The translations under genes and the position numbers were made by a program. DNA of 64,000 nt, taken from Sabellastarte sp. h YS-2021. Taxonomy: Eukaryota > Annelida > Polychaeta > Sabellida > Sabellidae. Location of the stretch: NCBI GenBank assembly GCA_964017235.1, contig OZ024930.1, forward strand, positions 26,478,614-26,542,613. The letters are read 5' to 3'. The notes beneath the pieces were generated by a model, which worked only from the letters and a program-made list of their open reading frames with translations, was not told where the DNA came from and ran no database searches. This document shows, piece after piece, positions 9,201 to 45,200 of this stretch; the first letter of the stretch is position 1, and each line of letters begins with the position of its first letter.

Positions 9201-12200
9201 GTCTCCTTCAAGAAGGGTTTTGATAAAGACATCTCACCTGCCACCATCTCCTCATGGATCAAACAGACTGTGGTTCTGTGCTATGAGCTCTCTGACCAGG
9301 AGGCCCTCACCTTACATCAGGTTAAAGCCCATGATGTTAGGGCCTTTGCTGCCTCTAAGGCTTTCCAATCAGGGATTTCCTTAGATCAGATCTTGTCAGC
9401 CTGCCACTGGAAATCTCACAACACCTTCACCCAATTCTATTTGAAGGATGTTGCCTGGGCTGGCTCGGAGCTTTTCCACCTGGGACCTGTAGTGGCTGCC
9501 CAGCAGGTGCACCACCAGGCCCAGAAGTGAGGGGATGTTGTATATATGTAAATATGTACATATTGTAAAAAAAAAAAAACGAAAAAAAAAAACTGTGACT
9601 TGCTTCCCTTGGGAAGTTTATGTCTTCTGGGACTGAACTCAGCCCCTCTCTCTCTATCTTTCCCTTCTCAAACCGACTCTGGAAGGAAAGAAAAAAGGGG
9701 GGGGGGCAACGTCGGTAGACTCCCGGTTAACCGGTGAGTTGGTGGCCGACCTTGACCTGTCAGGGTTCTCTGACCCTAGGTCAAATGGGCCTGTACTTTT
9801 TTGTTTTGTTATGAGTTCACAGAAGTCCCTAGATGCTTACCCGCCTACCAAGCAGTAGTTATTCAGCAATTGTCCGGCCGTGACTGAGCTTTCAACAATT
9901 ATAAAAATTCCACCACAGATCAATACTGTTGTCATTTCTTGTGTTCAGTACTTCAGTTAATCACTAGAGGGCGCTTTTTCATGTTTACATAAAAACTGTC
10001 TATCCATGTCCCCAGTAAGAAAATGGCTGACATGATACATAATATGGTATTGCTATAACAACACAAAAACATTTAAAAATCTAATGTATGTAAATGAAGG
10101 ATATAAACATTGTCTACATTGAGTAAATACAAAATTTTCCTTCCTGAGCTTGACAAATGACTTATTAAACAAATGGATGAAAAAACGTCTATCCATGTCC
10201 CCACCCGTGTACCAGTTTTATTGCAGCATATCCCGAAAGTCCTGGTGGCTGACTGGTTAAGTGTTAACAAAAGCTTGCTGTTGAATCTCTTGACTCTTGC
10301 CTCTGTGTGTGTGTGTGTGGGGAGGGTACAAATCCTTGTGGAATTCACTAAGGATATATCCTGATATCACTGTTGCGTTTGAGAGAGATGTAACATCACA
10401 TCATTAAATTTGCAGGATATGCCAGACAGGGAGGAAGGCTTGCCTTCAGACTGGAAGAAGAAAGGCTTTTGCTCTGTGAAATACACCTCCCACTCAGCTA
10501 CTGATGCATGTGTGGCACTCAAGTATGTCGACCTGGCAGATGTGGCAAAAGTCCATTGTTCAGGTCAGTTTGACATGGAACTGACATTATTTGGTCCATT
10601 CAACTGCGTGAGTCAACAGACTGTTGAGTATTTGTTTGATCTGTTATAATGGAGTAAGAAACGTGAAACTCTCACAATATGTGACATTTGCTTGAGAAGA
10701 AATACCTTCTGTTTCCTTAACTTGTGGAATATTCTTTACACATTTATGACTTTTCTAGCTACATTGTCTCCCCTGCTTCCGAATTTGCTCAAATTTTGTT
10801 TATTTTGACCTACTTTTAAAGGGTGCCCCCAGTGACAAATTACTGTGGTGAATTACCCTGTTCTTACTCAACAATAACAAAAATCAGTGTAATTTGTGGT
10901 TCAAACCTTTTGTGTGGGTTTGAATTCAAATTTGAGGATGAGGATATACCTTGAGTAGGATTTTACTGGGTGATACTAACTTTATGTTTATACTTATGTA
11001 CTTATGTAGGACTCAGTTTCACTTTGAGACTGTGAGTGAGTGAGTTTGAATGGATTTAAGATGTGTCATGAATACTGACCCAAAATGTTTTTATGAAACT
11101 CAAATTTTGCATTAAGGAGCGACGTCCTACCCAAGTATATGCTGGAAGTCAAACTTGAGGCTGAGTTTAATAGAGATTCAGATTTTGTATGAACACCAAC
11201 CCAGTTTTTAGATATTCATTGCAGTTTTCCACCTTGGCCGCACAAAAAGCAGAATACTTGCCTATTGTTTCCTACAAGACCTCTCAAACTGTATTTACAT
11301 ATATTTTGATGATGCTTTGTTTCAGTTGCAGGAAGTGGCGTCAGATGCAGCTGTCAGTTGAAGGTCAAGGACTTTGTAAGAACGGTTACTCAAGGTCAGG
11401 CAATGATGGAATATTCATTCATTAGAATGATTGATTGTCTAATTTGCACTTGACTGACAGGGCTGTGTAGTAATCTGTAATGTACATCTTGCTATCAAAC
11501 TTGCAATTTGGCCCCAAATTCTCTTTCTACTTTTAAATGGTACTCTGTTTAGAATAGTGATCTTTCAATAAAAAAAAAAAGGAGCACTCGGAGAGTGCAT
11601 AAATCTTCCAGCGTCAAACACCTTCAATATTACTTATGGGTACAATGATAAAAAATAGCATCAGAGATGCCTGTATCCTTCAGCCTGGAAAAATAGTTTT
11701 CAACAACATAAGATATAGAAGAAGTGAAACAGTACAAAAATTGGGAGACTTTCAGAGAAAACTGTGTCAGTCATATAAAGGTCCAAGTAGGGTTTAAGTA
11801 GAGAAAATAATGTTCAAGAGAGAAAATATATGTATAGGTAAAGGATTAAAACAAGATGAATAAATAGAAGGATGACAGCATTAATCAGTAAACTAAAACT
11901 TATGAAGCTGTAAAATTTAATTGAAGTATAGCTGGCAATGGAAATAGCCCAGTTAAGTAATAAACAGTTGCAGCAATCATTGTATCTTTGTGATAAGAGA
12001 TTTAGCATACCCACACTCTACAACCACTGACCTATCCAAGAATTAACTACTTCAAAGGTTAACTGAAGGTCAAAGGTCAAATCAAGGCCACATCATGATG
12101 TTGCACACCTACACCTCCTATCATATGTCTGCACAAAGTATCAACTTCCTTCACAGTATTGTTTCCCAGATATAGCCCTCACTAAAGGTCAAGATCACAA

Positions 12201-15200
12201 TGGCAAGGTCAAAGGTCAAATCAAGACAAAATAAGGTTCCACACCGCCAAACTAATGCCCTACCAAGTATCAACTTTCTTCACTGTATTGTTTCCGAGAT
12301 ATGGCCCTTGCCAGTTTTTAAAGGTCAAAGTCACTATGATAAGGTCAAAGGTCAAATCAAGGCCACATCATGAAGTTCCACGCCCTCTAACTAATGCCCT
12401 ACCAAGTATCAATTTCCTACACCCTACGGATTGCGAGATATAGCCTACACAAGATTTTAAGGTCAAAGGTTAAACCAAGGTCACACCATGACATTGCATG
12501 CCTACACCCCCTAAACAATGTCCCTGTCAAGCATCGACTTTCTGTGCTTATGGTTTCTGAGATATAGTCGAGACACAATTTTAAAGGTCGAGGTCACTAC
12601 AGCAAGGTTGAAGGTCAAATCATGGTCACACTATGATGTTGCACACCTACAACATGAAACCAATGTCGCTACCAAGTATCAACTTCTTACACCTTACAGT
12701 TTCTGAGATATAGTATGAACAAGATTTTCAAAATCAAGGTCATCTTAGCAAGTTCAAATCAAGGTCGCACCATAACACTGCACACCTACACCCCCAACCC
12801 ATGTCCCTACCAAGTATCAACATCTTACGGCTCACGGTTTCTGAGATACAGCATGGACAAGCTTTTGTGGCCACCTGCCAGCCAGCCTGAACGCCCACCG
12901 ACCCATTCGGACACCATGGGTGAAAACAATACCCACACAGCACTTAAAGGATGTGGGAAAAAATCCTTTAAAATTTCTAGGTTCTTGCAGTGATCCAAAT
13001 CACCACTAAAATCAAGTAATCTGTTCCTTGTGCCATTATCAACATTTCCTGAAAATTCCATCAAAATCCATCCATAACTTTTTGATTTCTTTTACAAACA
13101 AACAGACTAAAGAAAAATGCATGCTGCCAAAAACAACACCTTCTTGGCGGAGGATATCCATACCAAGACCTGCTTTGAGGAATTATTTCCTCAAAATTAT
13201 GTGATTTTGAAATTCAACTTGACAGGAGTTAACTGCATTTCTATGCAGATATTGACTGTCAAAAGTTAATTGCATTCTTTTGTTAATGTTAATTGATGTG
13301 TTGAGGCTTTATTGTAATGGTAAAAAAAGACTTAAAATATCTTTGCAACTTATGGTCTACTATTCTAATATCTAATTTGATATAAAATAGAATCAAATGT
13401 TGTGTTTTCTTCTGAAGTTTATTCTTCATTTAACAATTCTTTTACATGTTAGACTGGAAAAAGTGCTGTTTTTTAACCCACAGGGTTGAGGACTTGGTAT
13501 CCATATTTTTCTTACAATCTTAAACATCTCGGGAAAAAAGAACCAAAGGAAATTCCTGAAATAGTCCTTGGTTACACATACAGGGCTCTTGTTTTCTGCG
13601 TGTTATTTAGTTCTATCAATGCAAAAACATGGCTCAAGTAGAAATGACCACTGACAGAGTGGTATGAGAGTTAAATTTTCATGGTGACAAAAAGTCTTTT
13701 CGATGTGTAAGTTTCCATCCTCATGCAAATATTTAAATTTTTCACTTTAACTGGCATATGTACCCGGTATAGGAGGTGTGAAGAGTATTCTCTCATTAAT
13801 ATTAAGCCTTTAATAAGGTCTTGATTCAGTGAGTGTTCAAGTACCAGTAGTCTTTTACAGCCCTAATGTGTACTGACATTGGGTCCTATCCCCAGTGGCA
13901 GGCTAAGGGCGTTGATAAATGGTCATCCTTGAGCCTCTATCTTCCAGTTAGGGGAATGTCAGTTACTTGAGAGCTTGGGCTGGTTTAATAGCGCTTTGAG
14001 TCCTGTAGTATATGGAGATATTGCGCTGAGTATAAATACACAATACAATACAGTACTACTGTATCTGTAGATGCCTGCAGTACATACACAAACCTACACA
14101 AACTGTCCATGATGTTCAAAGACAAGGTGAGCTTTCCCATACTGCAGAGCTTACATAGAGGTGAGTACCAATTACAGCTGAAGTTGCTTTTAATCTAACA
14201 AAACCAATTGTAGGCTTTTAAATTACAACAGATACCTGGGAACAAAGAGTTTGAACAAATTTATCAAAAAATGTCTTCAAGAACTATAAATAAAGGGTAT
14301 AGTTTCATAAAGTCTGTAAGTCCCTGTAATAGTTTTAATTCATTTATTTCTTTGGGGTTTTACATTGCTTTCAACACTGTACAGGTCTTAACACGACGGA
14401 TAGTTGGAAGGGCAGAGGAAACCAGTACATACAGTTGGTCAAGGCTCTGTACTATAAACTGCCGACCAATGGCAAGCAACTACCAACTTCCCCACTTGAG
14501 GTCGGGCCAGAAAGCGAACTCCGATCTCACAGGTCGGAGTCGAGATTGTTACCACTCTGTCACCGTGGCCCCCTAGTTTTGATTCAAGTAAAGCCTAAAT
14601 AAACAAACGAGGCTTTTCATCACATAGCTAGCTTTTACAACCTTAAACACTATTTCATAGAAATCTCGAAAGAAACTTGACCAAAAATGGGATTTTTAAT
14701 ACTCAAATCAGTAGCTGATTTGAATGCTTATAACTGCTTATAGAATTTTATGGTAAAAAATCAACCAGTAACTGAATACACCAACTTTCTTTTTACTAGG
14801 CTAGTATACTTATCTAATCCAATCAACATTTTGCAGAGCTTAATCCCTGTGCTAAAAAAATGTGAAGACCAAGAAACAAAAATCATTGTCCAAAAATATG
14901 CAGCCAGTTGACAAACATGGGTTATAAAGTAGTTTTATTCACTCCCCTCCACTGTATAGCTTTTAGAGAGGGCACTATAGTAGATCTCTATTATCCAACC
15001 TTATATTTTCTGAACATTTGACAATGAAGTCATGTCCACAGATTTTTTTTTTTCAAGAAAGCCTAGTGCCAGGTGCAAGTAATGCCAGACTGTGACCTTA
15101 TCAAAAGTAATTAATGGTGAATAAACTTGGTTCTCTGTGGTACCCGTGTAAAGTAAGTAATGTTTTCATATCTGTCAAAAGATTTCTACATTTACAGATA

Positions 15201-24200: not shown

Positions 24201-27200
24201 TGTAAATCTGTTTTGTGGTAACTGACAGAATCTGGTAGTGTTGTGGTTGAATGCGAATTTTAGAACCGGTTTCCGAAAGCAGAAATTCGACTAAAAACCG
24301 GGTATGTTTGATTTATAAAATGTGTAGAAATAAGTTTTCAAATGTGTACATAAGCTTTAACGCGCATATAAATAAGAACCACGAGGGACTTTTTGAAGAC
24401 TTTCGAGGACAAAATGTGTGATATATCAATAGATTATTATAAAATACTGTGAAGTATTAGTTGTAGTTCAATATTTTGGTAAACTTGAGGTAAAATAATG
24501 AAACGTGAAACAGGTTTTGGTTGGAAGAAAATGAAACGTAACCGGATCACTGTCTTTCGGTCGGCAAATAGGTTTCCAGTTTACTGTCTTCAACACTAGA
24601 ATCTTGGTGTCCGCATGTTAGTACAAATCTGTCTGAATATCAAGTTTTTTTTCCATGATCTTACGGAAGTAAACACTATTTTTTTTACATATTTATAAGT
24701 ACCTGGTTTTGTAGTTTGTTTCTCAACATAATGTGTCTGCTTTCCAGTCACAGCCTACAAGTTGATAATAATTAGGACAGCCTATAAATGGTAAATCATA
24801 GGGGTGTAATTTTTCACAGGGGCTTGGGTTTATCTGTCATACCAGATGTTTTATCTTATTAGAAATAATATGCAGGATATTTACTCACTTTTTTCACACA
24901 TTGGATTAAAAATGTCCCATTTAAGAAAAAAATAACTCTGATAAGACTCGTGTCAACACTGTAAAGAAGTAATTGACACTTGAAATAATAACAGGTCTGT
25001 GGACTGTGTACATCTCAGCTCTGGTGTATTTGTTCTGTGGGTTTCATATAAATATTGTCTATTGAGATCCTACATTGGAGAAAAACCTACCTTGTTAAGA
25101 TTAAGCCACTTGGAAGTCATTGGAATATGTCTTTTATAATCATTCCAATAGAGGTGTCACCTTTTATATACACTGTGATGTAGTGTAATCAGTGTGCTGT
25201 ATAATTCATCCATGGGAACACAAACTAGAAAAGAAGTTTACCTCTTCTAGAAATTCTACCTTAATTTGTATTAATCTATTGGTTTTAACAGTGTGTAGGC
25301 CAAAATCAGGAAGTGACAGTTTAAGTGAAAGTGGAAATTAGTGCAGACTTGTTGGTGAAGATCCTGTACTGTAACTGAAAACCAATGAAATATTTTGACG
25401 TGTACAGTAGAAATCATTGTCTCATGAGATATTCTTTCAATCCAAAACTGTTTTGTTGTTCACCAATGTACAGCTTTACTTAATATTTAAGCGTTCCGTC
25501 AGGGGTGCTTATTTGTTTTCACATAAGTTCGACTGGTCACTGCCGCTGCGGCTGCTGCTGCCGGATTATGGTCTCCCTTGAATAAAACACAAAAATGCTT
25601 GTATCTTGAAAACCATGCTAGATAGAGCGATTTCGACAAAATCTTTGACCCACAGGGTAAAATTGCTGAGTGGCTGACCCAATTTTCAATTTTTTCACAC
25701 AAATTGCAAAACACAAAAATGCTTGTATCTCAAAAACCGTGCAAGATAGAATGATTTCGACAAAATTTTTGACCCACAAGGTAACTATGAAGACTAGCCT
25801 TTCCAAGTTTCAATGAATATCATGCTCGCCAAAAATGGCGGCCATTTTGAATTTTGGAAGTTTTTTAAAAAATGCAAAACATAAAAATGTTTGTATCTCA
25901 AAAACTGTGCTATATACAGTGATTTCGATTAAATTTTTGATCCGCAGCTGCAGGGAAACTGCTGAGTAGCTGACCAAGTTTTCAAAAGAAGTTTTTGTCC
26001 CGTCAAAAATGGTGGCCATTTTGAAGTTTTCGCAAAAATTGCAAAGCACATAAAATGCATTTATCTGGAAAACAGTGTGACATATATTGATTGTTCTTTC
26101 CTTAACCGTACAAGATAGAACAATTTCATCAAAATTTTAGAAACAGAACTTTCTTACACAATTAAACTGCCATTATTTCTCCTTTTCAGGAACGCTTTGT
26201 TTCTGCCATACAAAAACAATTGCTTTGTTTTGGAAGCGATCCTCTAGTTTGTATTCATTTACACGAATATATGACCAATAGATATATTAATATGACAATT
26301 ATGAAATGGAGAATCTGGACTTCTAAGAATTCCTTGCAGTTTCTTTAAGGGTTTGTTTTTGGTGAAAAAGGTAGTTGTTTGAGGATTTTGTATTCACCAG
26401 ATAGCATCCGGTGGATACTATGGATTTTGCTTTGTTACGCCGCCGCCGCCGTCACCGCAGTGTGTAGAGAGATTTCACCATTACCGCTCTAACAAAAAAA
26501 ATATTATAGCTAGACTTCTCAAATTTTCAGGATATATTCATAACCATAAAATCTTGCCTGGGAATATTTTTGGCCTCATTTTGAAAAAATGCGTTTTTTT
26601 GGGCATTTTTTTCGACTTTTACAAGGACTTTTGGTGGCCCTGTAGAGCAAAGGGTATTGTAGCTAGAGATCTCAAATTTGCAGGGTATGTTCCTCATTAC
26701 AAAATCTTGACTGGGAGTATTTTTGGCCTCATTTTGAAAAACAAGATTGCTGCCACGGGCATTTCTTTGTCAGTCATAAAAAGTGCTTATATCTCCATTA
26801 TTGTTGGTCCTAGAGTTTTGGGATGATAAACCAATCTATAGGAAATCATGGGCTGAGAATCTTTTGGTGTGATCAGATTTGACCTTGGACTCCTCCTTCA
26901 AGGTCAAACAAGGATAGCCAAACTTAAAAGTGCTTATAACTCACTTATTATTTGTCATACAGGTTTGGGATGGTAAACCAATCTAGGAAATCATGGGCTG
27001 GGAATTTTTTGGTGTGGTCATATTTGACCTTGGACCTCTCCTTCAAGGTCAAATGAGGATAGCCAAACTTAAAAGTGCTTATACCTCGCTTATTATTGGT
27101 CCTAGAGGTTTGGGATGGTAAACCAACTTATAGGAAATCATGGGCTGGGAATCTTCTAACGTGGTTAGATTTGACCTTGGACCCCTCCTTCAAGGTCAAA

Positions 27201-30200
27201 CAAGGATAGCCAAACTTAAAAGTGCTTATAACTGGCTTTGGCGAGTTGTCTTTTTGGTTGATACAAATTTGCATTGGTTCTCAGATGCGTAGGTCTAGTT
27301 TGTATTTGTATTTTGTGTTTATACACAGCGTGATGTCTACATGTACTACAGGACTCAAAGCACTATAGGACCCATTCGATTGTACAAGTACAGTCCAACT
27401 CGCAAATTACTCACATTCCCCTAACTGAAAGACTGAGCCTCAAGTATGACCATTTTATTAACGTCCTTGAGGTTCTTTAACCTGCCACTGGGGATAGGAC
27501 CTGATGACAGAGGACTGCCATTTTAAGTGGTCATCCAAGCCACTATATAACTGCCTGTACCTGGGATTGAACCCACGTCCTATGTGTTCCTAGGCGAGTG
27601 TGTTACCCACTAGGCCACAGTGGCAGATAGGATGACTAAAATTATTAATTAAAATTCATTATTTGAGAATTTGTTTGTGTTCTGTTTACTAAGTAAAATG
27701 TGTCGTGTAATCTGTTTTGGGTTTTTGACTTCCATTTTGCTGTACAGTTGAAAGTCTTTAACCAGAGGTCTGTTGAGTAGAATTCTCTGTAAAAAGTCTG
27801 TGCACGCCAACCCATCCCCTCCTGTGTGATACAAAACATGCTGTTGTGTATTTACAGAAAGACCTGACTCCAATAGTCTAACCCAGGACTGGCAAAAGGT
27901 ATGTAGATTTATCCAGATTAAAAATCAAATTTCTCGACTTATATGATATTCTCACTGGGACGAAATCTTAAAACTAAGAAACAAGAGGAAAAATGCAAGG
28001 AATTTATTCAACAGATTAGGAGAATGGCCTAGAATTGAAAAAAATCACATAATTAATCTGAAACAATGACCTGAAATTTGAAGAAAAACAAGGGGGTATC
28101 ATCAGGTATTTTACAAACTAATGGGAATTTCCTAAGTAGTAATCCCATGACTGAAATTGGAAACAGCAATGGACTATCTGACCAAATAAATGCAAAAGTT
28201 AGAGATGATCTGTTATGAGAATGAAAACCAGCTGGGTATTTAACATGACAAGAATTTATTTACAAGAATATTTTTCTCAGTAGCTGGAAATGAAGTGCAT
28301 CTGATGTGAACAGGTTTATCATAAATAAAGTTAAAGTAGCTGCTAATATAAGGAAACTTATGTCAAATGCATATGTAGTATAGGTTAATCAAGTGTGACC
28401 TAATATTAGGTTTTATTTAAGTTGATTTACCATGAAAAAAACATATTAGCTATTGGGGGATGCTGCACTAATGAAGACAGAGAATGGTGATGACTAAAGT
28501 GTTGTTTTGTGGCGATGATGTGATTGAAGGAAACAATATGTGATGTTCAATTTTACTTGAACTATATCCTACAATAAAAGAATAATTCCAACACTACAAA
28601 TATATTAATTATGTCCACCCCCCTGGGGGGTGGATATATTATTTTTGCTTTTTTCGCCGTCCGATGTCCGATGTCCGATGTCCGGCGTCCGGCGTCCGGC
28701 GTCCGATGTCCGGCGTCACGCATGGTTTCCGCTCATTTAAAGGAAAAGTATTAGAGCTATTGTCACCAAATTTGGTATGCAGGCTTATTGGGTCAGTAGC
28801 TTGCTTGGGATTGCTTTTGGCTGTTGTACCTCTTTTGCTTACTGAGTAATACTTAAGTACAGCTATTTTCAGTACCCATTGGTTTCCGTGCATTTAAGCC
28901 AAAATAATTAAAGATATTTTACTACAATTTTGAATACAAGATTGTTATGTCCATAGCTCGCTTGGTATTGCATTTGGGACTGATAGCTTTGTCAGTACAT
29001 GAGTAATAGCCATTTAGGTACTTCATTGTGTATTTTCAGTACTACTTTTGAGTAATTTGCTTCTATCTCCTTAACCGTGCGAGATAGAGCGATTTCGGCA
29101 AAATTTTCGACCCGCAGGGTATCTGAGGAGTGTACTCTTTGCAATTTTCAAAAAATTTTCCCCTCCCCAAAAATGGCGGCCATTTTGAATTTTCGAATTT
29201 TTGCCAAAAATGGCAAAACACAAATTTGCTTCTATCTCCTTAACCGTGCGAGATAGAGCGATTTCGTCGAAATTTTCGACCCACAGGGTATCTAAGGAAT
29301 GTAATATTTGCAATTTTCAAAAAAATTTCCCCTCCCCAAAAATGGCGGCCATTTTGAATTTTCGAATTTTTGCCAAAAATGGCAAAACACAAATTTGCTT
29401 CTATCTCCTTAACCGTGCGAGATAGAGCGATTTCGGCAAAATTTTCGACCCACAGGGGATCTAAGGAATGCAATCTTTGCAATTTTCCAAAAATTTTCCC
29501 CTCCCCAAAAATGGCGGCCATTTTGAATTTTCGAATTTTTGCCAAAAATGGCAAAACACTAATTTGCTTCTATCTCCTTAACCGTGCGAGATAGAGCGAT
29601 TTCGGCAAAATTTTCGACCCACAGGGTATCTAAGCAATGCAATCTTTGCAATTTTCAAAATATTTTCCCCTCCCCAAAAATGGCGGCCATTTTGAATTTT
29701 CGAATTTTTGCCAAAAATGGCAAAACACAAATTTGCTTCTATCTCCTTAACCGTGCGAGATAGAGCGATTTCGTCGAAATTTTCGACCCACAGGGTATCT
29801 AAGGAATGTAATATTTGCAATTTTCAAAAAATTTTCCCCTCCCCAAAAATGGCGGCCATTTTGAATTTTCGAATTTTTGCCAAAAATGGCAAAACACAAA
29901 TTTGCTTCTATCTCCTTAACCGTGCGAGATAGAGCGATTTCGTCGAAATTTTCGACCCACAGGGTATCTAAGGAATGCAATCTTTGCAATTTTCCCAAAA
30001 TTTTCCCCTCCCCAAAAATGGCGGCCATTTTGAATTTTCGAATTTTTGCCAAAAATGGCAAAACACAAATTTGCTTCTATCTCCTTAACCGTGCGAGATA
30101 GAGCGATTTCGTCGAAATTTTCGACCCACAGGGTATCTAAGGAATGTAATATTTGCAATTTTCAAAAAAATTTCCCCTCCCCAAAAATGGCGGCCATTTT

Positions 30201-33200
30201 GAATTTTCGAATTTTTGCCAAAAATGGCAAAACACAAATTTGCTTCTATCTCCTTAACCGTGCGAGATAGAGCGATTTCGGCAAAATTTTCGACCCACAG
30301 GGGATCTAAGGAATGCAATCTTTGCAATTTTCAAAAAATTTTCCCCTCCCCAAAAATGGCGGCCATTTTGAATTTTCGAATTTTTGCCAAAAATGGCAAA
30401 ACACTAATTTGCTTCTATCTCCTTAACTGTGCGAGATAGAGCGATTTCGGCAAAATTTTCGACGCACAGGGTATCTAAGGAATGCAATCTTTGCAATTTT
30501 CAAAATATTTTCCCCTCCCCAAAAATGGCGGCCATTTTGAATTTTCGAATTTTTGCCAAAAATGGCAAAACACAAATTTGCTTCTATCTCCTTAACCGTG
30601 CGAGATAGAGCGATTTCGTCGAAATTTTCGACCCACAGGGTATCTAAGGAATGTAATATTTGCAATTTTCCAAAAATTTTCCCCTCCCCAAAAATGGCGG
30701 CCATTTTGAATTTTCGAATTTTTGCCAAAAATGGCAAAACACAAATTTGCTTCTATCTCCTTAACCGTGCGAGATAGAGCGATTTCGTCGAAATTTTCGA
30801 CCCACAGGGTATCTAAGGAATGTAATATTTGCAATTTTCCAAAAATTTTCCCCTCCCCAAAAATGGCGGCCATTTTGAATTTTCGAATTTTTGCCAAAAA
30901 TGGCAAAACACAAATTTGCTTCTATCTCCTTAACCGTGCGAGATAGAGCGATTTCGTCGAAATTTTCGACCCACAGGGTATCTAAGGAATGTAATATTTG
31001 CAATTTTCAAAAAAATTTCCCCTCCCCAAAAATGGCGGCCATTTTGAATTTTCGAATTTTTGCCAAAAATGGCAAAACACAAATTTGCTTCTATCTCCTT
31101 AACCGTGCGAGATAGAGCGATTTCGGCAAAATTTTCGACCCACAGGGGATCTAAGGAATGCAATCTTTGCAATTTTCCAAAAATTTTCCCCTCCCCAAAA
31201 ATGGCGGCCATTTTGAATTTTCGAATTTTTGCCAAAAATGGCAAAACACTAATTTGCTTCTATCTCCTTAACCGTGCGAGATAGAGCGATTTCGGCAAAA
31301 TTTTCGACACACAGGGTATCTAAGCAATGCAATCTTTGCAATTTTCAAAATATTTTCCCCTCCCCAAAAATGGCGGCCATTTTGAATTTTCGAATTTTTG
31401 CCAAAAATGGCAAAACACAAATTTGCTTCTATCTCCTTAACCGTGCGAGATAGAGCGATTTCGTCGAAATTTTCGACCCACAGGGTATCTAAGGAATGTA
31501 ATATTTGCAATTTTCAAAAAATTTTCCCCTCCCCAAAAATGGCGGCCATTTTGAATTTTCGAATTTTTGCCAAAAATGGCAAAACACAAATTTGCTTCTA
31601 TCTCCTTAACCGTGCGAGATAGAGCGATTTCGTCGAAATTTTCGACCCACAGGGTATCTAAGGAATGCAATCTTTGCAATTTTCCAAAAATTTTCCCCTC
31701 CCCAAAAATGGCGGCCATTTTGAATTTTCGAATTTTTGCCAAAAATGGCAAAACACAAATTTGCTTCTATCTCCTTAACCGTGCGAGATAGAGCGATTTC
31801 GTCGAAATTTTCGACCCACAGGGTATCTAAGGAATGTAATATTTGCAATTTTCAAAAAAATTTTCCCCTCCCCAAAAATGGCGGCCATTTTGAATTTTCG
31901 AATTTTTGCCAAAAATGGCAAAACACAAATTTGCTTCTATCTCCTTAACCGTGCGAGATAGAGCGATTTCGTCGAAATTTTCGACCCACAGGGTATCTAA
32001 GGAATGTAATATTTGCAATTTTCCAAAAATTTTCCCCTCCCCAAAAATGGCGGCCATTTTGAATTTTCGAATTTTTGCCAAAAATGGCAAAACACAAATT
32101 TGCTTCTATCTCCTTAACCGTGCGAGATAGAGCGATTTCGTCGAAATTTTCGACCCACAGGGTATCTAAGGAATGTAATATTTGCAATTTTCAAAAAAAT
32201 TTCCCCTCCCCAAAAATGGCGGCCATTTTGAATTTTCGAATTTTTGCCAAAAATGGCAAAACACAAATTTGCTTCTATCTCCTTAACCGTGCGAGATAGA
32301 GCGATTTCGTCGAAATTTTCGACCCACAGGGTATCTAAGGAATGCAATCTTTGCAATTTTCAAAAAATTTTCCCCTCCCCAAAAATGGCGACCATTTTGA
32401 ATTTTCGAATTTTTGCCCAAAATGGCAAAACACAAATTTGCTTCTATCTCCTTAACCGTGCGAGATAGAGCGATTTCGTCGAAATTTTCGACCCACAGGG
32501 TATCTAAGGAATGCAATCTTTGCAATTTTCCAAAAATTTTCCCCTCCCCAAAAATGGCGGCCATTTTGAATTTTCGAATTTTTGCCAAAAATGGCAAAAC
32601 ACAAATTTGCTTCTATCTCCTTAACCGTGCGAGATAGAGCGATTTCGTCGAAATTTTCGACCCACAGGGTATCTAAGGAATGCAATCTTTGCAATTTTCC
32701 AAAAATTTTCCCCTCCCCAAAAATGGCGGCCATTTTGAATTTTCGAATTTTTGCAAAAAATGGCAAAACACAAATTTGCTTCTATCTCCTTAACCGTGCC
32801 AGATAGAGCGATTTCGTCGAAATTTTCGACCCACAGGGTATCTAAGGAATGTAATATTTGCAATTTTCAAAAAATTTTCCCCTCCCCAAAAATGGCAGCC
32901 CTTTTGAATTTTCGAATTTTTGCCCAACATGGAAAAACACAAACTGGCCTTAACCGTGCAAAATAGAGTTATTTTGTTGAAATTTTCGACCCATAGGGTA
33001 TCTAAGAAATGTACTCTTGGCAATTTTCAAAAAAATTTCCTTTTCCCAATAATGGCGGCCATTTTGAATTTTCAAATTTTTGCCAAAAATAGAAAAACAG
33101 GAATTGGCTTCTATCTTCTTAACCGTGCAAGATAGAGTGATTTCGTCAAAATTTTCAACCCAACCAATGCAAAAAGGCATGAAGCGGAAATAAATTACAT

Positions 33201-36200
33201 CTACACTATCAAATATTTAAGCATCATTGATATATTTTACAAATGAAACAGGGTCTTGTAAGACTACTGTACAATTTGGGCAAAAGGTTCATGGGTGGAC
33301 ATTACACATGATAATGTGTGTTCTTCTATGCTATCCTGTTTCTATTCGCATCTACTATCAACAGGGCGGCCTATTTCTAGTTAAGAATTGTACTTTATAT
33401 GCGAGACAGATTCATCTTCATAAAATAGTGACTTGTTAGACTGGGTCAAAGGTCATTTGGTTTTGAGTGTTTTTGTTTGTTTTTTCAAATTTATTTTGAT
33501 TTCATGTAGTCTTAATCTTAGTTGTGCCAACTTTTGAAACTTTAACCTTTCCATATTGCTGAAGTGTTTAACAAGTTTGAATTTAATCACTTGGTTCTCA
33601 TCTATCTGGTCATGGGTCTTAATCCAGTTTATGTGAGACTCACTGAGACTTGGTCCTGATTAGACTTTAGCTGTTCAACAGGACATAAAAACCCTAACCT
33701 TGACTTTGGTTTTGTGGAGATTCATTTCACTACTGAAATCTTAATTACATCTGTTAGACTGAATATTGAAAATGGACTGATATTCTTCCCAACCCTTCAA
33801 CCTAGTGGGCACATTAATGTATTCAAAAGTTAATTCGGTCATTGTTGTTTTAACACCTCAGCGGTACATTAACATACAGTTTATAACAACAACATTTCAT
33901 TGTTAACGCATTGATGATGTTAAATAACGCAAATGTTTAGACACCAAAAGAGAAAAGAAAAAATACTCTTCCCAGAACAATTCCAACTGACGCATGATTA
34001 ATATGCGTTGGGTGAGCAAATCTTATGCTTCAACACTTTGGCCCTTTGTCGTTGAGATTTTGCATGAATGCCTTAATTGTATTTTGATAGTAATCACTGA
34101 AAAAACATCATGGACGGAAACTTCAAAGTAGAAAGAGCATGTTATTAATTGTCTTATTGGATGCAGTGTAGTATTTGCTAGTTAATTATTTTTGTTCTGT
34201 TCAATATCTGCTCATTATTTATGTAGAGCTATTTTGCTAAACTAAGTAATTTGTGTTTCGGCAAAAGTAAAAAACGAAAAATAGGTTGTCCATTTTTGGA
34301 GTGAAGAATGGTGTTATTGTTACAGAAATAGGATTTTTATAATGTTAGTAATTTTATATTCAATAAATCTTTTAATGCAGTATAACCTCTGTTAAACGAC
34401 CACACTAGAAGATTGAACTTGTGTTTGAATAAAAAATAGGTTTTGTAAACTAGAAAAGACATCAAACAATGAGGAAATATAAATTTGGGAGAATGGAAAA
34501 AGAAGAATCTATAATGTAATGTTACAAATATGATGTTATTTCTTTGACTTTTTGAGTGATAAAATTTAAAAATATACATGTACTTGATAAGGGTTATTGT
34601 ATCCACCGGAGGTATCTGGTGGATACTTTGGTTTAGCGTTCACTACACCACCGCCACCATGCGTAGAGATTTTTTGCATTAACGCTCTCAGAGGTAAACT
34701 ACACCAACTAGGTTAAATTTGCAGGATATTTGGGGGGTATATTCTCTGGGACTGAAATTAGCCACATTCTGAAAAACAAGATGGCCACCGTGCAGATTTC
34801 TTTGAAAATTATATACATTATTCTACTGGCTGTTTCTCATAGGTAGAAGGTTGAATCTCTTCATAGGTGATATGTATAACAGATATACATGTCCTTTACA
34901 ACCTTGCAGACATTTGACCTTGAAGCTCTTAATTCAAGGTCATCCATGGAGTGCCAAAGTAACCTACATATCGGACTTAAAAAGTGCTATATCTCCCTTA
35001 TTATTGGTCCAAGAGGTTTGCAATGTGAAACCAACCTATAGGAAATCATGTGCTGTGAATCTTCTGATGTTGTCAGATTTGAATTTGGACCCCGCCTCCA
35101 AGGTCAAATGAGGATAGCCCAACTTAAAAGTGCTTATAACTCGATTATTATTGGTCCTAGAGGTTTGGGATGGTGAACCAAAACTAGTGTTGTTAACGGT
35201 TTTCTGGTATGCAGTATTTCATTTTTTTGGTGGAAAAAACGAAATCCGCAAAGAATATTTGTGAACCGGTTATTGAAAACGTTATTATTTTAGGCTTTCT
35301 AATGGCTGATACTTCATCAAAATGACAAAAAATATACATATTTTGTAAAATATGTCACATTTTTACTTTATATTGAGCAAAAATCATTTTTACGTGCCTA
35401 ATAAAATCTCATGAAAGCCACTTTCATTTGCAAGTTATCGCTCATGTACATTTACGAATAATTTTCAATGCACAGAAGAAGCATACGAAATACCGGATTT
35501 TGTTTCGTTTCAAAGCCCCGGTAACCGGTTTTGATTTCTGTAAGCGATACCACCACTAACATAGGAAATCATGGGCTGAGAATCTTCTGGTGTGGTCGGA
35601 TTTGACCTTGGGCCCCTCCTTCAAGGTCAAACGAGGATAGCCAAACTTAAAAGTGCTTAATTATAACTCGCTTATTATTGGTCATGGAAGTTGGGATGAT
35701 AAACCAACCTATTGGAAATCATGGGCTGGGAATTTTTTGGTATGGTCAGATTTGACCTTGGGAACCTTGTTCAAGGTCAAACGAGGATAGCCAAACTTAA
35801 AAGTGCTTTTAACTCACTTATTATTGGTCCTAGAGGTTTGGGATGGTAAACCAACCTGTAGGAAATCATGGGCTGGGAATCTTCTGGTGTGGTCGGGTTA
35901 GACCTTGGGCCCCCCCTTCAAGGTCAAATGAGGATAGCCGAACTTAAAAGTACTTATAACTTGCTTATTATTGTTCCTAGAGGTTTGGGATGGTAAACCA
36001 ACATATAGGAAATCATGGGCTGGGAATCTTCTGGAATGGACAGATTTGACCTTGGGCCCTTTCTTCAAGGTCAAACAAGGATAGCCAAACTTAAAAGTGC
36101 CCATAACTCGATTATTATTGGTCCTAGAGGTTTGGGATGGTAAACCAACCTATAGGAAATCATGGGCTGGGAATCTTTTGGTGTGGTCAGATTTGACCTT

Positions 36201-39200
36201 GGGCCCCTCCTCCAAGGTCAAATGATGGTTCACTGGCTTTGGTGAGTTGTCCGGTGGATACAAATTTGCATCGGTTTTATGTTTACTGTATACTACTTTG
36301 TTTGAATAATAAGAAAACTAAGTCAGCATGCAACCAAGAAAAGTATCCACAGTAGTGGGCACCAGTGAATATAAAAACCTTCAATATTTACTAGTCTCAG
36401 ACAGTTCTATAGGAATTTATTGGATCAAATACCGTTAGAAGCCCAGTGTAAAGATACCTTTCTTAAGAAACGTATGTGTGACTTCTTTACATACATTTAG
36501 TAATGTTTGTGAAAAATCATCACATGTATGTGTATTTTAAGTGGCAAAGCTTATCCATGATAAGGGGCACCAGGGAATGTCCCACTAGTTAGATGAGACA
36601 AATTGCATGGTGGATAACGAAAATGATTAGTGTACATCGTTTACAGTATTGGACTTGTCTCTGTTCCAATGACAATGACTATATTAAAGTAGAAGTAATT
36701 TTTCTTATCCCTCACAATTGGACCTGAAGCTGAAAGATTAAAGGCACTCCCACTTGATCTTTTGTCAGATATGGGGCTACAGAACCACCCAAGCACTTAC
36801 TGCTTACTTGAGTATCTCACAAATAATGAGCTTATTTTTATTGCAATGGAATGATTTGTAATATTATTAAATATGAAATTTTATTTGTCGGAGTTGATCT
36901 ACCATTTTCCAAAACATTGGTGATGTGCATAGGTTTTTTACTTAGAAGGCAGTACATGGCAATTGCCTCACGTCGAGAATACAATTATATATTCTGCTGA
37001 ATGTACGGAGTCACTGCAATATGAATCAGCTTTAAGGGTCCTTAAATAGGTTAAATAGGTCACATAATCAGCTGATGATGGGCTTTACCTTAACAAAAAT
37101 TAAGTCCAAGACCTTTTGTCACCTTTTATTAATGTACAGTGTACCTTGATGAGATGAAGTATGTTTTCTGTGGTGAGACAAAAACTGCCTTTCTGACAAA
37201 AACTGCTCTAACAATAATGAAACAAAGGGAACAGTCAAAGAAAAAAACAAGGGGTTAATAATTACCCAGACAGGATGACTCATGGATAGTGGTCTTATAT
37301 ATGGTGTATCCTGTGGAAAATAAGTAACAAATCCAGAATTTGCTATTTTTAGTTGATTTACATATCTTGCCTGTAAGACAGAAAATGTTTGTAAATTAGG
37401 GGAAGATATACTATTGAATAAAAGTTATTTTAATAAAAATGATCATGATGGATCATATTTTATGATGTGTTGAAGATAATTTACAGTTATTCTTAAAAGC
37501 TTTTATGATCATGTTTAGAGAGATTTGTCTCCCTATATATTCAGTGGCTGGCTGGTTAATAAATTTGGTATTTATCCACCTTACTCTCATCAGCTTATGG
37601 TAACTTGGGAGATTCACTAAGAGACTGTCCCAATTTGACCTGAGCTCCTGCAATGTATGAAATACCCGAGCTTTGACCCAAATATTCACTGAAAGTCATT
37701 GTTGTTAAATGACTGCAGGTGAAATGAATAGACCAAGTGTACAATAAACACACTTATAAAGTAAGCAAGATTGGGTTGGATGAAAGGCTAATAAGATTTG
37801 GGTATAGATCTGCATTTTTCAGGGAAGGCGCCTGTGCATAGACTTCTATAAAGACTCAGTGCATAAAGGCCCTGTCTACTGATACAGAGTCTGGTGTCCT
37901 GCATCTAGATACCTGTCCCAAATTCTATGATAAATTATTTGCTCTGATTCACCTGTTATCAAACATCTAACCTTATAATTTTTCATAATTTAGCTTTGTC
38001 AAGCATCCAATCTGATTATTTGTACAAATTCACCTGTCCCAAAAGTTCAAGCAGACTATTGGTCCAAATTCCACTCTCCCAAAAGTTTGATCAGACTTTT
38101 GGTCTGTCCCAAAAGTTGAACCTGACCTTTGATCTAAATTCAGTTGCTCAAAAGTAAGACAACATATCCAAATTCTACTGTGACAAAAATCTGGCTGGAT
38201 AATTTGTCCAAATTCAGCTATGCCAAAAATCCAAAAAACAGGGAAGGGTGGTATAGTGACACCAACTATACAATAAGAGGAAAATTATCACACAAATTTT
38301 AAGATAATGCCATTTGGGGCAATGGTAGAGATGTCTCCAAAAATAGTTTAATAATTGGCCCTGCACCTAGATTAATATTTGGGTCATTGTGGTTCCTAAC
38401 CATTGCATTACACAAAATCTTATGTGTATATTTTTGGCACTGTAAGGGGTCAGACAAAACAACCCCCCAGCCTCTGATAAGACTACTTCTAAACCATGAA
38501 GGTCGAAATATATAAAGAATATATATCAGGCCAACAGCTTCTTGATCTGGCATAAGACAAACCCTTTTTTGTATTTGTATGCCAAAAATCCAACCAGGCA
38601 ATTTGTCCTGATCAGGCTTTACCAAAAGTTTAATCAGGCAATTTGCCCTGATTGAGCTATATCAAAAGTTATTGAATCAGTAGGTCCCGAGGAATTCTTT
38701 ATTCAACTGATAATGACACCATAACAAAATCAAAACTTTAGCAGTTTTTGTTGATATTGATTTTTTTTCCATTTACAATATTAAAAGTTATGTAATCATT
38801 ACTTTATAACGTCCGCTGGTTCTGTTTACAAATACATTGTGTTCATCAGTTCTCACCTTTACATTCCCAGGGTTTATCTTTTTATTGCGTTAATACATCC
38901 TATCCAATGGACAATAGCTTATCCGGTCGGCGCGGACCGGCCCGCCAAACGTCAGAAAAAGACGTCCTGTGTCTCCACCGGCTAGGCCGGCCCAGTGGTG
39001 TGCACTCGCCAGATGGCGTGTCGTACTTCCTTCCTGTCTAGACAGAGTGACGTCATAGCATCTTTTTCGTTTGGCGCATGTGTGTTGTGCACGAATTTTA
39101 TGAGTTAACAAATTTTCAAAGATATTCACAGTTTCTTTAGAGGGTGACTTTTATTTTATATATATATTTGTTCAAGAGTGTGTATAGATCATTTTGGACT

Positions 39201-42200
39201 ATCTTTTGTCACGGATCGTCATGTCTTCCCCTGCTCAGAAGCATGGAAGTTGTGGCCATATCATGGCCAGCTTCGACAGTCACAGTTTCTGCGCACGTTG
39301 CAGAGAAAAGGGTAAGGGGTCAGATCCTTGTGTTTTAAAGAATGATTGCAACTCTTGTAACATTTTGTCTGAGGACCAACGCTTGCAGTTGTCCACTCCA
39401 TCTTACAGACTAAAAAAGGAAAAGCGTGATCTCAAGAAATCCGCGGATACTCCTAATAAGGACTCATCCAGTTCCTCTCTCATAGATCCATCTTCAGTGA
39501 TGGTGGTGGGAGTTGTGGACGATCAAGGGATTGTTAAGTCCCCTGGTTCGAGTTCTGAGAAGAAGAAACAGAAAAACAACCAACCTGATAAACCTTCTAA
39601 AGATTCCAAAACTTCTGCTGATAAGCCCTCCAAGTCGCTTTCCAAGACTCACAGATCCTCACCGGATACTAGGATTGAGGAGTTAGACCAGAAATGGTCG
39701 GACAGGTTTAACAGACTGGAGGCTCTCCTTTTATCAAGGTCTTTGGATAAGGAACCTACTTTTTCCTCAGTGAAAGTGGCTCCAGCCCACTCGCCTCCTC
39801 AGAGTTCGGCTATCTCTTCCAGACCGTTCATTGAACCCGGTCAAACTTCAAGTCAGTTGGCTACCGACCTCACCTCTCAGAGACCGGTCACCGACCATAC
39901 CAGGAATTCCCCTTCTGCTCACCGACCCTCAGATTTGCCTGGTGTTACTCAGACTGTCTCCAAGTCGACCGGCAAATTGTCCAAGGGAAAGGTGTCTGCC
40001 GACCAACATTCAGATGTAGCTGGTACCGATTCTCCCTCATCTCAACAGGTACCCAGCAGATCATCAACAGCACCGACCAGGCGGCACAGTGTCTCATCAA
40101 TGGACACGGACTCAGAAACGGACCTTTCGGACCGTCCCCCAGTAGACCTCTTTGTTGCTGAGGAAGGGGAGCTATCTGATCAAGAACTGGAAGCCTCTTT
40201 AAATGATTCAGACCTTACCCTCTCGGAAGAGCAGAGCTACCGTGAAACCATGAGTGGTATCAGGTCGTTTATGGGGTGGACTCACATCCCAGAAGTCGAT
40301 AGCACAGCTTCCAGATCTGAAGATAATCCCTTTGCCGGCCCTAAATCTCAACCGACAGGAAAGGTCTCAGTCACCATGCCCACGGACGAGTGGCTTTGCA
40401 ACAAATTTGGGAAATTAAATGTTACTCTCACAGAAGGGTATCCATCACGCAGCTCAGAGGCTGGAGGGCTCCTCAAGGACCAGTTCGTCCGCCCCCCCAA
40501 AATCGCAAGCGAAATGGTATAGCTTTGCACCTAACCCACAGAAGAGTGATCAGGAAGCGGCACAGACTGTAACTACTTGGAACACGGACGTTTCTAAAGT
40601 TAATAGTTCCTACAGTCGCATAGCCAAGGCGGCCGGCATTGCTTCAACCCCTCCTGCTTCCCGTCAAATATCACAGGATAATTTACGCAGATGGGAAAAG
40701 GCGGCCCGCGAAGCTTCCACCACTTGCAACCAGGCGGCTGCATTCAACAGGTGCCTATACAAGGTCCAGGGAAACATGCAAACAGAACTCAAAACCATTA
40801 GATCAGAGTTGGGTAAAGGGAAATCGGCAGGAAAGATGTCCCGTGCAACAGAGGAAATGCAGTTCCTCTTGAACTTCAATTCAAGCATTACCCAGTCTAT
40901 GGCGAAAACCCTTGAACACTTAACAGACTTTGTTTTTGTGATGGTCGCCAATACTACCCTGATTAGAAGAGATTCGTATCTCTCCCACTTAAAGATGGGT
41001 ATCAAGCCAGACACTCTGTCCGCTTTGAGGACTGGACCTCTTCACACTCCAACCCTGTTTCCAGATGCTGCCTTAAAGCAAGCGGAGCAGGACATTGCCA
41101 ATTTTGAAAACAAGTCTCAACCCCAGTCGGGCAAGAAAGGTCGCTTCCATCCATACGAACGAACCGACAAGCGTTCGGATTACAGGAAATCAGACCGACC
41201 AGCTTGGAAGAATATTGGCAATAAGGGACAGGGCAAGAAGAACAAGGGAAAGGCCTCATTCTATTCCTCGCGACCAGCCAAGGGCCAGCAGTCATATAAA
41301 TGACAGTTATTGTGTAACCAGTTTACCAAAGGGACTGCTGGCCCGGAGCAAGACATTAGTACAAGAAAAGACACTAAATACTGTAAACTTTCATGTTGTA
41401 ACAGGTGTACCTTCTGCTCCCGGGCACTCCCAAAAGAGAGAGTTAAGTCCCGGGGCAGCAGATTGTCAAATATCAGAGTATCACAAATTAAAGTATGTGA
41501 AACTTGCTTCTTGTGTCACTCAGTTGTCTTGTGTCCAATCTGTAAACAGTGCCCCAAATGTTGTACAAAATCTGCCTGTAGGAGCCAGACTCCAAAACTT
41601 TTGGGAAACTTGGTCAAAACTAGGAGCCGGCCCCAAAACCCTTCAAATACTGAAGGAGGGCTATACCCTCCCTTTTCAAACACGACCAAATCTTACAAGG
41701 TCTCCAACTGTCATAAGTTGTTATGCCAATCCCCACAGGAACAGCTACCTGATGGAGGCATTGCATCAGCTTACGGACAAAAACGCAGTCGAGTTGGTCC
41801 GCAATCAAACATCCTTGGGTTTCTTCAACCGACTTTTTCTAGTGCCCAAACCCAACAACAAATGGAGGCCAATACTAGACCTGAGCAAACTAAACCGTTT
41901 CCTCAATATGGAAAAATTCAAAATGGAGACACCGGAAACCATCAGAACATCTCTCCAACAGGGAGAGTGGGTCACCTCAGTAGACTTCAAGGATGCCTAC
42001 TTCCACATACCAATACAGGAACAATCCAAGAAATATCTCAGATTTCATATCCAGGGCCGGACTTATCAGTTCAAAGCTCTTCCCTTTGGCCTGTCCACAG
42101 CCCCCATGGAGTTCACTGTAATAGCCAAAGAGGTGAAACTGATGGCCGCACATCAGGGTATAAGGATCCACCAGTACCTAGACGACTGGTTGGTGAGAGC

Positions 42201-45200
42201 CAGATCCAAGCAGGGTTGCCTCCTCCCTCGGTTGGCTGGTGAATTTAGAAAAATCAGAGCTGGAACCCAAACAAGTCTTTGACTTTGTAGGTTACCAATT
42301 CGACCTCAGGTCCGGCCGGGTCAGACCGACTCCGGACCGGTGGCAAAGCCTTCAGGACAAAATACAAGCATTGCTCTTACTACCGACCTATCCGGTCCGA
42401 CAGTTCATGTCACTAATAGGACTCCTAACGGCCACAGAAAAGCAAGTTCACCTCGGCCGCTTACACATGAGACCCATACAGTGGCATCTCAAAAATCATT
42501 GGAGAGTACCAGAGTCACTCGAAAAGATCATTCCACTACCCAGATCTTTACACCCTCACCTACAATGGTGGCTGGAGGAAGACAATGTCCTCCAAGGTCA
42601 ACCCCTACACCCAATGAAGCATGCTCTGCAGATTTTTACAGACGCATCAAAAGAAGGGTGGAGTGCTCACTTAAACGAGCTCACTGCAAGAGGCTCCTGG
42701 TCAGTTCCAGAAAGCCAGCTTCACATAAATTACCTGGAACTCAAGGCAGTCTTTCTAGCCTTAAAAGAGTTCCAAGATCTGTGTGTAAATCAAATAGTCC
42801 TAGTGGCTACGGACAACACGACAGTCGTAGCATACATAAACAAGGAAGGCGGCATGAGGTCGGGCCCTCTGTGTGCCCTCCTGTGGAGAATCTTGACCTG
42901 GTGTTCCCAGAGACAAGTCACTCTAAAAGCCCGTCATATTCCGGGCAGGCTAAATCTGATAGCCGACAAACTATCCAGACTGGGTCAGACCATCCAGACG
43001 GAGTGGTCCCTTATTCCGGAAGTTTTTCAGAGCCTGTGCAGGAGGTGGCACCAGCCTCAAATAGACCTCTTTGCCACCAGGTTCAACTACAAACTACCTC
43101 AGTTTGTGTCTCCAATTCCGGATCCCCTAGCGGTGGCAGTGGATGCTCTCACCCTGCCATGGGAGGATCTGGATGCTTATGCCTTTCCACCGACCGCCAT
43201 CTTGGGCAAAGTAGTAGAAAAGCTACTGGACACCCCATGCAAAAGATTAATTCTGATCGCTCCGGGGTGGCCCAACATGCCCTGGTTTTGGGACTTAGTG
43301 GCCATGTCCAGCCAAGTTCCCCTGAGCCTACCACAGCTGCCCAACCTGTTGACACAGCCCTTCAACCAGATCCCTCACAGGAATCTGACCAATCTAAATC
43401 TCCACGCTTGGCTCCTAGAGCCACAGCAATCAAGGAGCAGGGCTTCTCTGAAGCAGTGGCAGCAAGAATTGAGGCTCCTCAGAGAAGGTCAACCAGATCA
43501 GTCTATGAGGCAAAGTGGACCATTTTTACGAAATGGTGCATCACTAATCAGGTGGACTTCAGGTCACCACGTATGAATTCAGTGGCTGATTTCCTACTTT
43601 ACCTCTTTGAGGTCAAAAATCTTCAGCCCAGCACCATTGATGGATACAGGTCTGCCATTGCGGATAAACTGGGTAATACCACAGTCAATATCAGCAAGGA
43701 TGAGAATCTCACGCGTCTCCTGGACAGTTTCCACAGAGACAGACCCAAGGGACGGAGGGGTATACCCTCCTGGAACCTTTCACTGGTATTACACCAGCTC
43801 ACAAAGGCCCCCTTTGAACCCCTTTGAGAGGCGTCATTGAAGCATTTAACCTTCAAGACTGTCTTCCTTTTGGCTCTGGGTTCGGGCAAAAGAAGAAGTG
43901 AGATCCATGCTTGGCAGCACAAGAATATCAGACACCAGTCGGACTGGTCCAAGGTGTCTCTGATTCCATCACCCAGCTTTCTTTCCAAGAACCAGCTGGC
44001 CAAAGAGGGTCCAGAGAGTGTAGCCCCAGTGGTCACACCAGCACTGGCTCCTACTCTGGATAGATCCCTCAAGTCTGACAGATCCCTTTGTCCAGTCAGA
44101 GCCCTACGCTATTATTTGGACAGGACTTCAGATCTCAGGCAGCACAAGGAGTTAGTCTTTGTCTCCTTCAAGAAAGGCTTCGACAAAGACATCTCTCCTG
44201 CCACTATCTCCTCATGGATCAAACAGACTGTGATCCTATGCTATGAGCTCTCTGATCAACAGGCTCACACCATACATCAAGTTAAAGCTCATGATGTCAG
44301 GGCCTTTGCTGCTTCCAAGGCCTTCCAGTCGGGAGTCTCCTTGGAACAGATCTTATCAGCCTGCCACTGGAAGTCTCATAACACCTTCACTCAATTTTAC
44401 CTGAAGGATGTGGCTTGGGCCGATTCAGAGCTCTACCATCTTGGCCCTGTTGTGGCTGCTCAGCAGATCCACCAACAGCCGAGGACTTAGAGGAGATCTG
44501 TGCATTTGTAAATAAGTGTACTTATTTGTATATATTGCATATATAGTTAAGCAGCAAGACAAAAAAAAAAAAAAAAATCTCTCACGTACTTCCTCCGGGA
44601 GAGCTAATTTTATGGGACTGAACTCATCCCTCTCTTCCCCTACCTCAGAGCAGGTCTGTTAAAAAAGGGGGGGGGGGCGCAAGGTCCTTAAAGGTATCTG
44701 ACTTCAAAGTCTACCTAGGCTGTAAGGACAGAAGAAATGGTCATTATTTCTAATATGAGTTCAACTTCTTTAGTCCCTAGTAACGCACCCGCCATCCAAG
44801 TGGTAGTTATTCAGCTATTGTCCATTGGATAGGATGTATTAACGCAATAAAATTGCAAATTTAATAGGTAAATTAAATTTTTATAAGTTAATACCCTATC
44901 CAATGGACACACAAGACCCTCCCACCTGACCCCGCTATCAACTTACTAGGGGTCTATATATGTTTAGACAACGAAAAAGATGCTATGACGTCACTCTGTC
45001 TAGACAGGAAGGAAGTACGACACGCCATCTGGCGAGTGCACACCACTGGGCCGGCCTAGCCGGTGGAGACACAGGACGTCTTTTTCTGACGTTTGGCGGG
45101 CCGGTCCGCGCCGACCGGATAAGCTATTGTCCATTGGATAGGGTATTAACTTATAAAAATTTAATTTACCTATTAAATTTGCAATTTTGCTATTTTTTTA

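Follow-up and report, generated by a model that had tools for sequence, protein, structure and literature searches.

We analyzed a stretch of 64,000 nucleotides from the sabellid polychaete Sabellastarte sp. h YS-2021 (contig OZ024930.1, called C4 below, positions 26,478,614 to 26,542,613; "the window" is this whole stretch), in which a 169-bp satellite had been predicted to form a five-monomer higher-order repeat (HOR). The satellite array forms the core of a transposable element of 4.77 kb with the principal structural hallmarks of a Helentron-associated interspersed element (HINE). The element has defined ends, inserts between two T's without duplicating them, is present in thousands of copies, and, in independent copies, carries its monomers in almost the same order. 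We hold it to be very probable that a young, non-autonomous Helentron-type transposon has this array as its satellite core and that the window copy, at 26.507-26.512 Mb of C4, is a recent insertion of a lineage whose three-block array already existed.

Tandem Repeats Finder (TRF) returned a period of 169 bp with 24.4 copies and 95% matches at 29054-33162, an array of ~4.1 kb. We cut 29056-32943 into 23 aligned monomers (m01 to m23), of which m17 has 170 bases and the others 169; degenerate repeats extend the array from 32943 to ~33162. Across 29225-31759, identity was 99.1% for monomers five apart (845 bp) and 96.9% for neighbors. Ungapped self-identity over ~29207-31741 was 0.969 at an offset of 169, 0.991 at 845, and 0.998 at 1690, so the 845-bp signal exceeds the 169-bp one, as the original prediction had anticipated. 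Neighbors among the 15 monomers m02-m16 differed by 5.29 bases on average, and monomers five and ten apart by 1.50 and 0.40; the remaining lags between 2 and 9 gave at least 5.0. When the 15 monomers were shuffled 100,000 times, 2 orders reached the lag-5 value (p = 3.0e-5, i.e., (2+1)/100,001). Over all 23 monomers the signal was weaker (3.17 at lag 5 versus 5.05 at lag 1).

Written by monomer type, the window array reads S ABCDE AbcFF ABCDE A+FAeEE?. The diagnostic variants named in the original prediction recurred at exactly the positions given, with CACAGGGGAT at 29451, 30296, and 31141, CACTAATTTGC one monomer later at 29557, 30402, and 31247, and TATTTT at 29661, 30506, and 31351. Its picture of three like five-monomer blocks held in that lag 5 beats lag 1, but the blocks are unequal. 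Differences summed from the identity matrix number 2 of 845 bases between blocks 1 and 3, 8 between blocks 1 and 2, and 7 between blocks 2 and 3; block 2 closes with two F variants where the others have D-E. The pattern had also been said to stop beyond 31.74 kb, which is borne out in that m17-m23, to the right of block 3, hold no B- or C-type monomers. The predicted coordinates are offset by 18 bases from the monomer phase used here, which is immaterial. Taken together, these data support a genuine HOR built of copied multi-monomer blocks.

The array sits inside an element (Table 1) whose termini can be summarized as TATGTCCACCC...CTAG and which starts at 28610 with TATGTCCACCCCCC-T-GGGGGGTGGATATA. 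Each end has a subterminal inverted repeat (subTIR). An inverted copy (IR) lies close to the 5' subTIR, and the two fold as DNA at -11.2 kcal/mol (z -2.71). The 3' end region has a stem-loop, which is seen in a 25-nt fold (-4.4 kcal/mol, z -2.32) and is not significant in a fold of the whole 95 nt. A microsatellite is present as well as the central tandem repeats, the two separated by ~340 bases of other sequence. The longest stop-to-stop frame within the element is 109 aa and recurs with the monomer.

Table 1. Positions of the element, its terminal features, and its satellite array in the window
Feature	Position	Strand	Basis or remark
Whole element (HINE), 4,772 bp, TATGTCC...CTAGT	28610..33381	+	Flanked by T 28609 and T 33382, without a target site duplication
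5' subTIR TATGTCCACCCCCC	28610..28623	+	Sequence, repeat search, DNA fold
IR of 5' subTIR, 1 nt apart	28625..28638	+	93% complementary over 14 nt
GTCCGAT/GTCCGGC microsatellite, 7-bp unit	28658..28717	+	TRF; length varies among copies
First, edge-type monomer S (m01)	29056..29224	+	First in 20/21 arrays
HOR block 1, A-B-C-D-E (m02-m06)	29225..30069	+	Identity matrix, monomer typing
HOR block 2, A-b-c-F-F (m07-m11)	30070..30914	+	Identity matrix, monomer typing
HOR block 3, A-B-C-D-E (m12-m16), differing from block 1 at 2 of 845 bp	30915..31759	+	
Right part of array (m17-m23), without B or C; m23 divergent	31760..32943	+	
Degenerate terminal monomers	32944..33162	+	Sequence; TRF end 33162
3' subTIR GGGTGGACAT, inverse of 5' subTIR	33293..33302	+	79 nt from 3' end
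3' hairpin ACACAT-GATA-ATGTGT	33304..33319	+	62 nt from 3' end
3' terminus CTAG(T)	33377..33381	+	CTAGTT in 20/20 available right ends (19 loci + window)

For comparison, we used 20 stretches of 10 kb from contig C1 that were picked for a pattern of the B monomer (the L-numbered loci below), and all 20 hold an array of the family. The right end of L035 falls outside its fetched stretch, leaving 19 right ends plus that of the window. The left flank of the window array found its best match per locus at 92-100% across the 20 loci. The alignment breaks sharply at the element ends (5' in 20 other loci, 3' in 19), and the DNA outside differs. T precedes TATG in 23 of 23 left ends (those of the 21 arrays and of a second element in L038 and in L046), and each of the 20 right ends reads CTAGTT, which places the insertions in TT. 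One empty site also shows that no target site duplication was made. This site is in L046, where the element interrupts an older satellite array. When joined, the flanks give a gapless 302-bp alignment to uninterrupted satellite, indicating a T|T insertion with nothing duplicated or lost. The joined flanks of the window copy match only the window's own two sides in a search that skips very common words. Searches with the satellite consensus and the 5' flank returned no hits, a negative that carries no weight given the same skipping of common words. A symmetric terminal inverted repeat (TIR) transposon had been suggested by the inverted GTCCACCC/GGGTGGAC; it was rejected on the 3' copy lying 79 nt inside the end. 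The target site duplication belonging to a TIR transposon or miniature inverted-repeat transposable element is likewise missing from the one empty site.

The family is abundant in the searched genome (1.786 Gb, 647 contigs). Exact copies numbered 3,773 for the 5' end, 7,917 for a 3' subterminal 31-mer, 4,050 for a 31-mer of the B monomer (2,016 forward and 2,034 reverse, 3 of them in the window), and 63,352 for a 41-bp monomer core (21 in the window), while the reversed-pattern control gave 0 for each. Among the first 100 listed places on C1, the B 31-mers are clustered at spacings such as 845, 837, 676, and 507. Among the first 100 listed 3' ends on C1, 13 have the B pattern within 12 kb on the element side, and 46 have an exact 5' partner end no more than 20 kb away, with some partners used in more than one pair. 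The paired element lengths along the first 28 Mb of C1 range from 2.0 to 18.1 kb.

The block order of the window recurs in other copies. The window matches L039 at 4,593 of 4,598 aligned bases (gaps of 169 and 7, L039 being shorter), L031 at 4,588 of 4,591 (gaps of 169 and 14), and L044 at 3,420 of 3,422 (gaps of 1,183, or 7 monomers, and 169), with the substitution and gap counts hinging on aligner penalties. The microsatellite is 7 bp off that of L039 and 14 bp off that of L031. The L039 array reads SABCDEAbCFDABCDEA+FAeE?, so that its second block closes F-D where the window has F-F, and its flanks are unrelated to those of the window; L031 lacks the E of the first block. The numbers of monomers matched to the window were 22 for L039, 22 for L031, 20 for L035, and 15 for L044.

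The original prediction had explained the HOR by recent block-wise amplification at the window locus. The same three blocks, with one monomer D for F, on another contig and in unrelated flanks argue instead that the HOR most likely came in with the element. Local amplification would fit blocks 1 and 3 being only 2 of 845 bases apart, and L048, with flanks identical to those of the window and a largely different array, makes change after or at insertion possible. We rejected it on the shared blocks and near-identical sequence of L039. The long stretches of order shared with L031 and L035 and the 4,050 genome-wide copies of the B 31-mer also oppose it. It would survive only if L039 had been copied from the window, and the array would then still be mobile cargo; we consider this origin very improbable. 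Finding a HOR at a single locus is thus not evidence that it was amplified there, as a transposon can bring the pattern with it.

We then counted monomer orders across the family, pooling B with b, C with c, and the 161-bp form of C. From the 21 loci, 581 monomers were cut, and 558 of these were counted in 24 runs of at least 3; we set aside the other 23, and of those counted, 33 remained untyped. The five commonest steps were A-B, B-C, C-D, D-E, and E-A. The order ABCDE occurred 20 times (18 without the window), compared to a mean of 0.06 and a maximum of 2 in 1,000 shuffles, and was found in 12 of 21 loci, with ABC in 19 of 21. Because related loci are not independent, the shuffle test demonstrates monomer order and is silent on the number of origins.

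The sequence outside the arrays allows the copies to be grouped. We compared 572 aligned non-array columns in 20 copies, excluding the microsatellite, the extreme 5' end, and L035, which has no right end. Five copies (window, L031, L039, L044, and L048) are identical over all 572 bp, with L036 a single difference away and the remaining 14 at 1 to 5 differences. One flank substitution divides the copies into groups of 6 and 14. All 6 arrays of the first group, and that of L035, start SABCD, and none of the 14 in the second group does. Half of the second group (7/14) starts S-F-A-B-(C-8)-D-E with a 161-bp C monomer, which explains the 837-bp spacing, and L049 has a 170-bp B. The rest of the group (L033, L037, L038, L040, L042, L045, and L050) has other array starts. 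Gene conversion between loci, in place of transposition, could also produce both a shared order and 572 bp of identity at five loci. However, conversion tracts are not expected to stop at exact element ends, as the identity does (20 left, 19 right), and the flank variant and the array start go together, so we judge this explanation to be quite unlikely. We give still less credence to an assembly artefact, in which satellite reads would have been collapsed or mis-joined. Near-identical 169-bp monomers are difficult to assemble and the data are those of an assembly only, but copies in unrelated flanks differ by whole monomers, S leads 20 of 21 arrays, and the element ends are the same at the compared loci.

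The arrays themselves vary far more than their flanks. The longest runs in the five copies with identical flanks are 23, 22, 22, 15, and 33 monomers, and those of the 21 marker-picked arrays range from 14 to at least 56. That copies identical over 572 bp hold 15 to 33 monomers shows that array length changes, by whole monomers, faster than bases do. We sought the best lag of each array up to 15. Lag 5 was best in the window, L034, L039, L043, and L045; an equal number of the 21 arrays had lag 9 (L031, L032, L036, L038, and L046), followed by lag 7 (L033 and L041) and lag 6 (L040 and L049). Best lags of single loci were 12 (L035), 8 (L050), 10 (L047), 14 (L048), 3 (L044), 2 (L037), and 1 (L042). 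A further locus, L068, was fetched for its HOR-like core spacing and examined at lags 1-19; its 38 monomers gave a best lag of 9, then 12, with letter-identical monomer runs. A strict five-monomer HOR throughout the family is unsupported, as lag 5 was best in the window and 4 of the 20 comparison loci. Block copying is thus general, and ABCDE is the prevailing neighbor order rather than a fixed repeated unit.

We propose that a Helentron Rep/helicase acting in trans would cut the element ends, copy the element by rolling-circle replication, and insert it elsewhere, so that the entire array, including the HOR, would move as a single unit. Between or during such rounds, homologous exchange or slippage of in-phase 169-bp monomers may duplicate or delete runs of monomers while the left array edge stays fixed. 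Block copying of this kind, applied to an older A-B-C-D-E order, would give the 845-bp HOR here and other periods elsewhere. In favor of this reading, the Helitron-like Rep domain PF14214 matched at least 24 places in the genome. Two of the matches, at C15:1154270 and C17:59270 on small contigs, have the same score and stops and are possibly alternative copies of one region. Head-to-tail copies that meet in an exact CTAG-TTATG junction were also seen, with 14 such junctions spread over 11 sites on C1, C3, C4, C5, C7, and C14. Four junctions lie in one run on C1 (17088376 to ~17108822) of five head-to-tail copies, in which the outer two are shorter than the three equal middle units (4,674, 4,673, and 4,673 bp by junction spacing). 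Such junctions fit rolling-circle concatemers. A bolder proposal is that rolling-circle transposition itself makes the HORs, with multi-monomer blocks copied via circle or concatemer recombination, which would make Helentrons HOR factories apart from centromeres. We offer this tentatively and think it rather unlikely. If true, the zero-substitution copies with 15 to 33 monomers would record single transposition steps.

Several observations weigh against our reading of the array as inherited Helentron cargo. The flanks of L048 are identical to those of the window, yet only 5 of its monomers aligned (gaps of 28 and 18), so that a dissimilar array can stand between identical flanks. The same low count of 5 was obtained for L036, which is separated by a single flank substitution. 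The alignment counts carry the dependence on aligner penalties given above. HOR frequency is overstated in our comparison because the 20 loci were chosen for the B pattern and are all on C1. At the 3' end, the 95-nt fold is no better than that of shuffles (z -0.98), and the distances from the terminus, 79 nt for the subTIR and 62 nt for the hairpin, exceed the 38-60 and 8-35 bp of mite HINEs (PMC4067079). The head-to-tail junctions could also be explained by insertion into the TT behind an older copy or by unequal crossing-over. No autonomous partner with these ends was identified among the at least 24 Rep places, whose ends stayed unread. PF14214 matched 0 of 14 control genomes, whose kind is unstated, so that this control says little.

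The array had also been placed within a gene intron, which we could not confirm. The window holds 83 stop-to-stop open reading frames (ORFs) of at least 85 aa, a length at which shorter exons would escape, and Pfam named no host gene with introns in the 20 that were scanned. Of these 20, 13 had no Pfam match, and 7 had retroelement, tyrosine-recombinase, or zinc-finger/weak hAT matches and one match below its cut-off. The regions 6604-9527 and 41077-44487 are DIRS-like retroelements with reverse transcriptase and RNase H type domains followed by Phage_integrase, a tyrosine-recombinase match that is just below the cut-off in the former and just above it in the latter. The ORF at 62951-63628, with a zf-C17orf113 match and a hAT dimerization match below the cut-off, is probably a transposase fragment.

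Other repeats lie around the element. An older, shorter array at 25584-26141 matches the 169-bp monomer at 83.7% at best and is a possible remnant of a related element. Arrays with a 147-bp period and similar consensus units flank the element at 26779-27238 and 35561-36222, possibly as the central repeats of another element family. Arrays with periods of ~135-146 bp, rich in TGACCTTTGACC-like words, occupy 2185-2590, 12136-12866, and 55958-56835. By eye, 27560-27630 resembles a tRNA-derived short interspersed nuclear element on the minus strand; ARAGORN (bacterial code) finds no tRNA in the window.

The original prediction had compared the array to centromeric alpha satellite. In primate alpha satellite, blocks of several ~170-bp monomers are more alike than neighboring monomers are. 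The window array shares the HOR, but the likeness is one of analogy only: alpha satellite HORs are megabase centromeric arrays, whereas this 4.1-kb array is short, bounded by mobile-element ends, and carried as cargo. We consider it highly improbable that the array is an outlying piece of a functional centromeric or heterochromatic satellite. The nucleosome-sized 169-bp monomer and the HOR would suit such an origin, and, because the pattern listings end within the first part of C1, a long array could exist elsewhere. Those seen are short, all 20 fetched arrays are element-bound, and the CENP-B-box core TTCGNNNNANNCGGG was not found on either strand of the window. Most discussion of HORs concerns centromeric satellites, whose age and history are difficult to infer. 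The many bounded, separately anchored arrays of this one family form a natural series in which block gain and loss can be counted against a substitution clock.

A literature search, with Repbase and Dfam outside it, found no account of a HOR inside a Helentron, which is weak evidence of novelty. "Higher-order" or "higher order" has no occurrence in the main text of PMC7492417, PMC11136912, or PMC8268682; the one "HOR" displayed there is a person's name. Passages of PMC10048060, PMC10218199, PMC7754599, PMC5874043, PMC5139131, and PMC12692304 describe no HOR inside a Helentron, and the monomer string was not found in literature text. Among these passages are accounts of beetle satellites with dimeric HORs, where Helentrons are named as carriers in oysters (PMC10218199), and of scallop satellite HOR units without Helitrons (PMC5874043).

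HINEs with satellite-like arrays are established in oysters and flies. As described by Thomas et al. (2014, PMC4067079), DINE-1 and the mite HINEs resemble our element in having subTIRs, a 3' stem-loop, insertion into T-rich or TT sites, and microsatellites or central repeats; those known elements are without coding capacity. A close structural counterpart is Cg_HINE of Crassostrea gigas (Vojvoda Zeljko et al. 2020, PMC7492417), a likeness of structure in which monomer sequences were not part of the comparison. Like our element, Cg_HINE has a 5' subTIR with an IR 1-12 nt away, a GTCC-type microsatellite, a central array of ~165-bp satellite-like monomers, a 3' subTIR with a palindrome, and TT insertion without a target site duplication. 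The same study also mentions that related oyster HINE repeats occur as classical satellite, which would speak for the centromeric alternative. Cg_HINE arrays average 3.62 monomers, with a longest of 29.3, compared to 14 to at least 56 here. However, C. gigas Helitrons carry up to ~90 monomers according to a passage of a review (PMC10048060), and length therefore does not set the window family apart.

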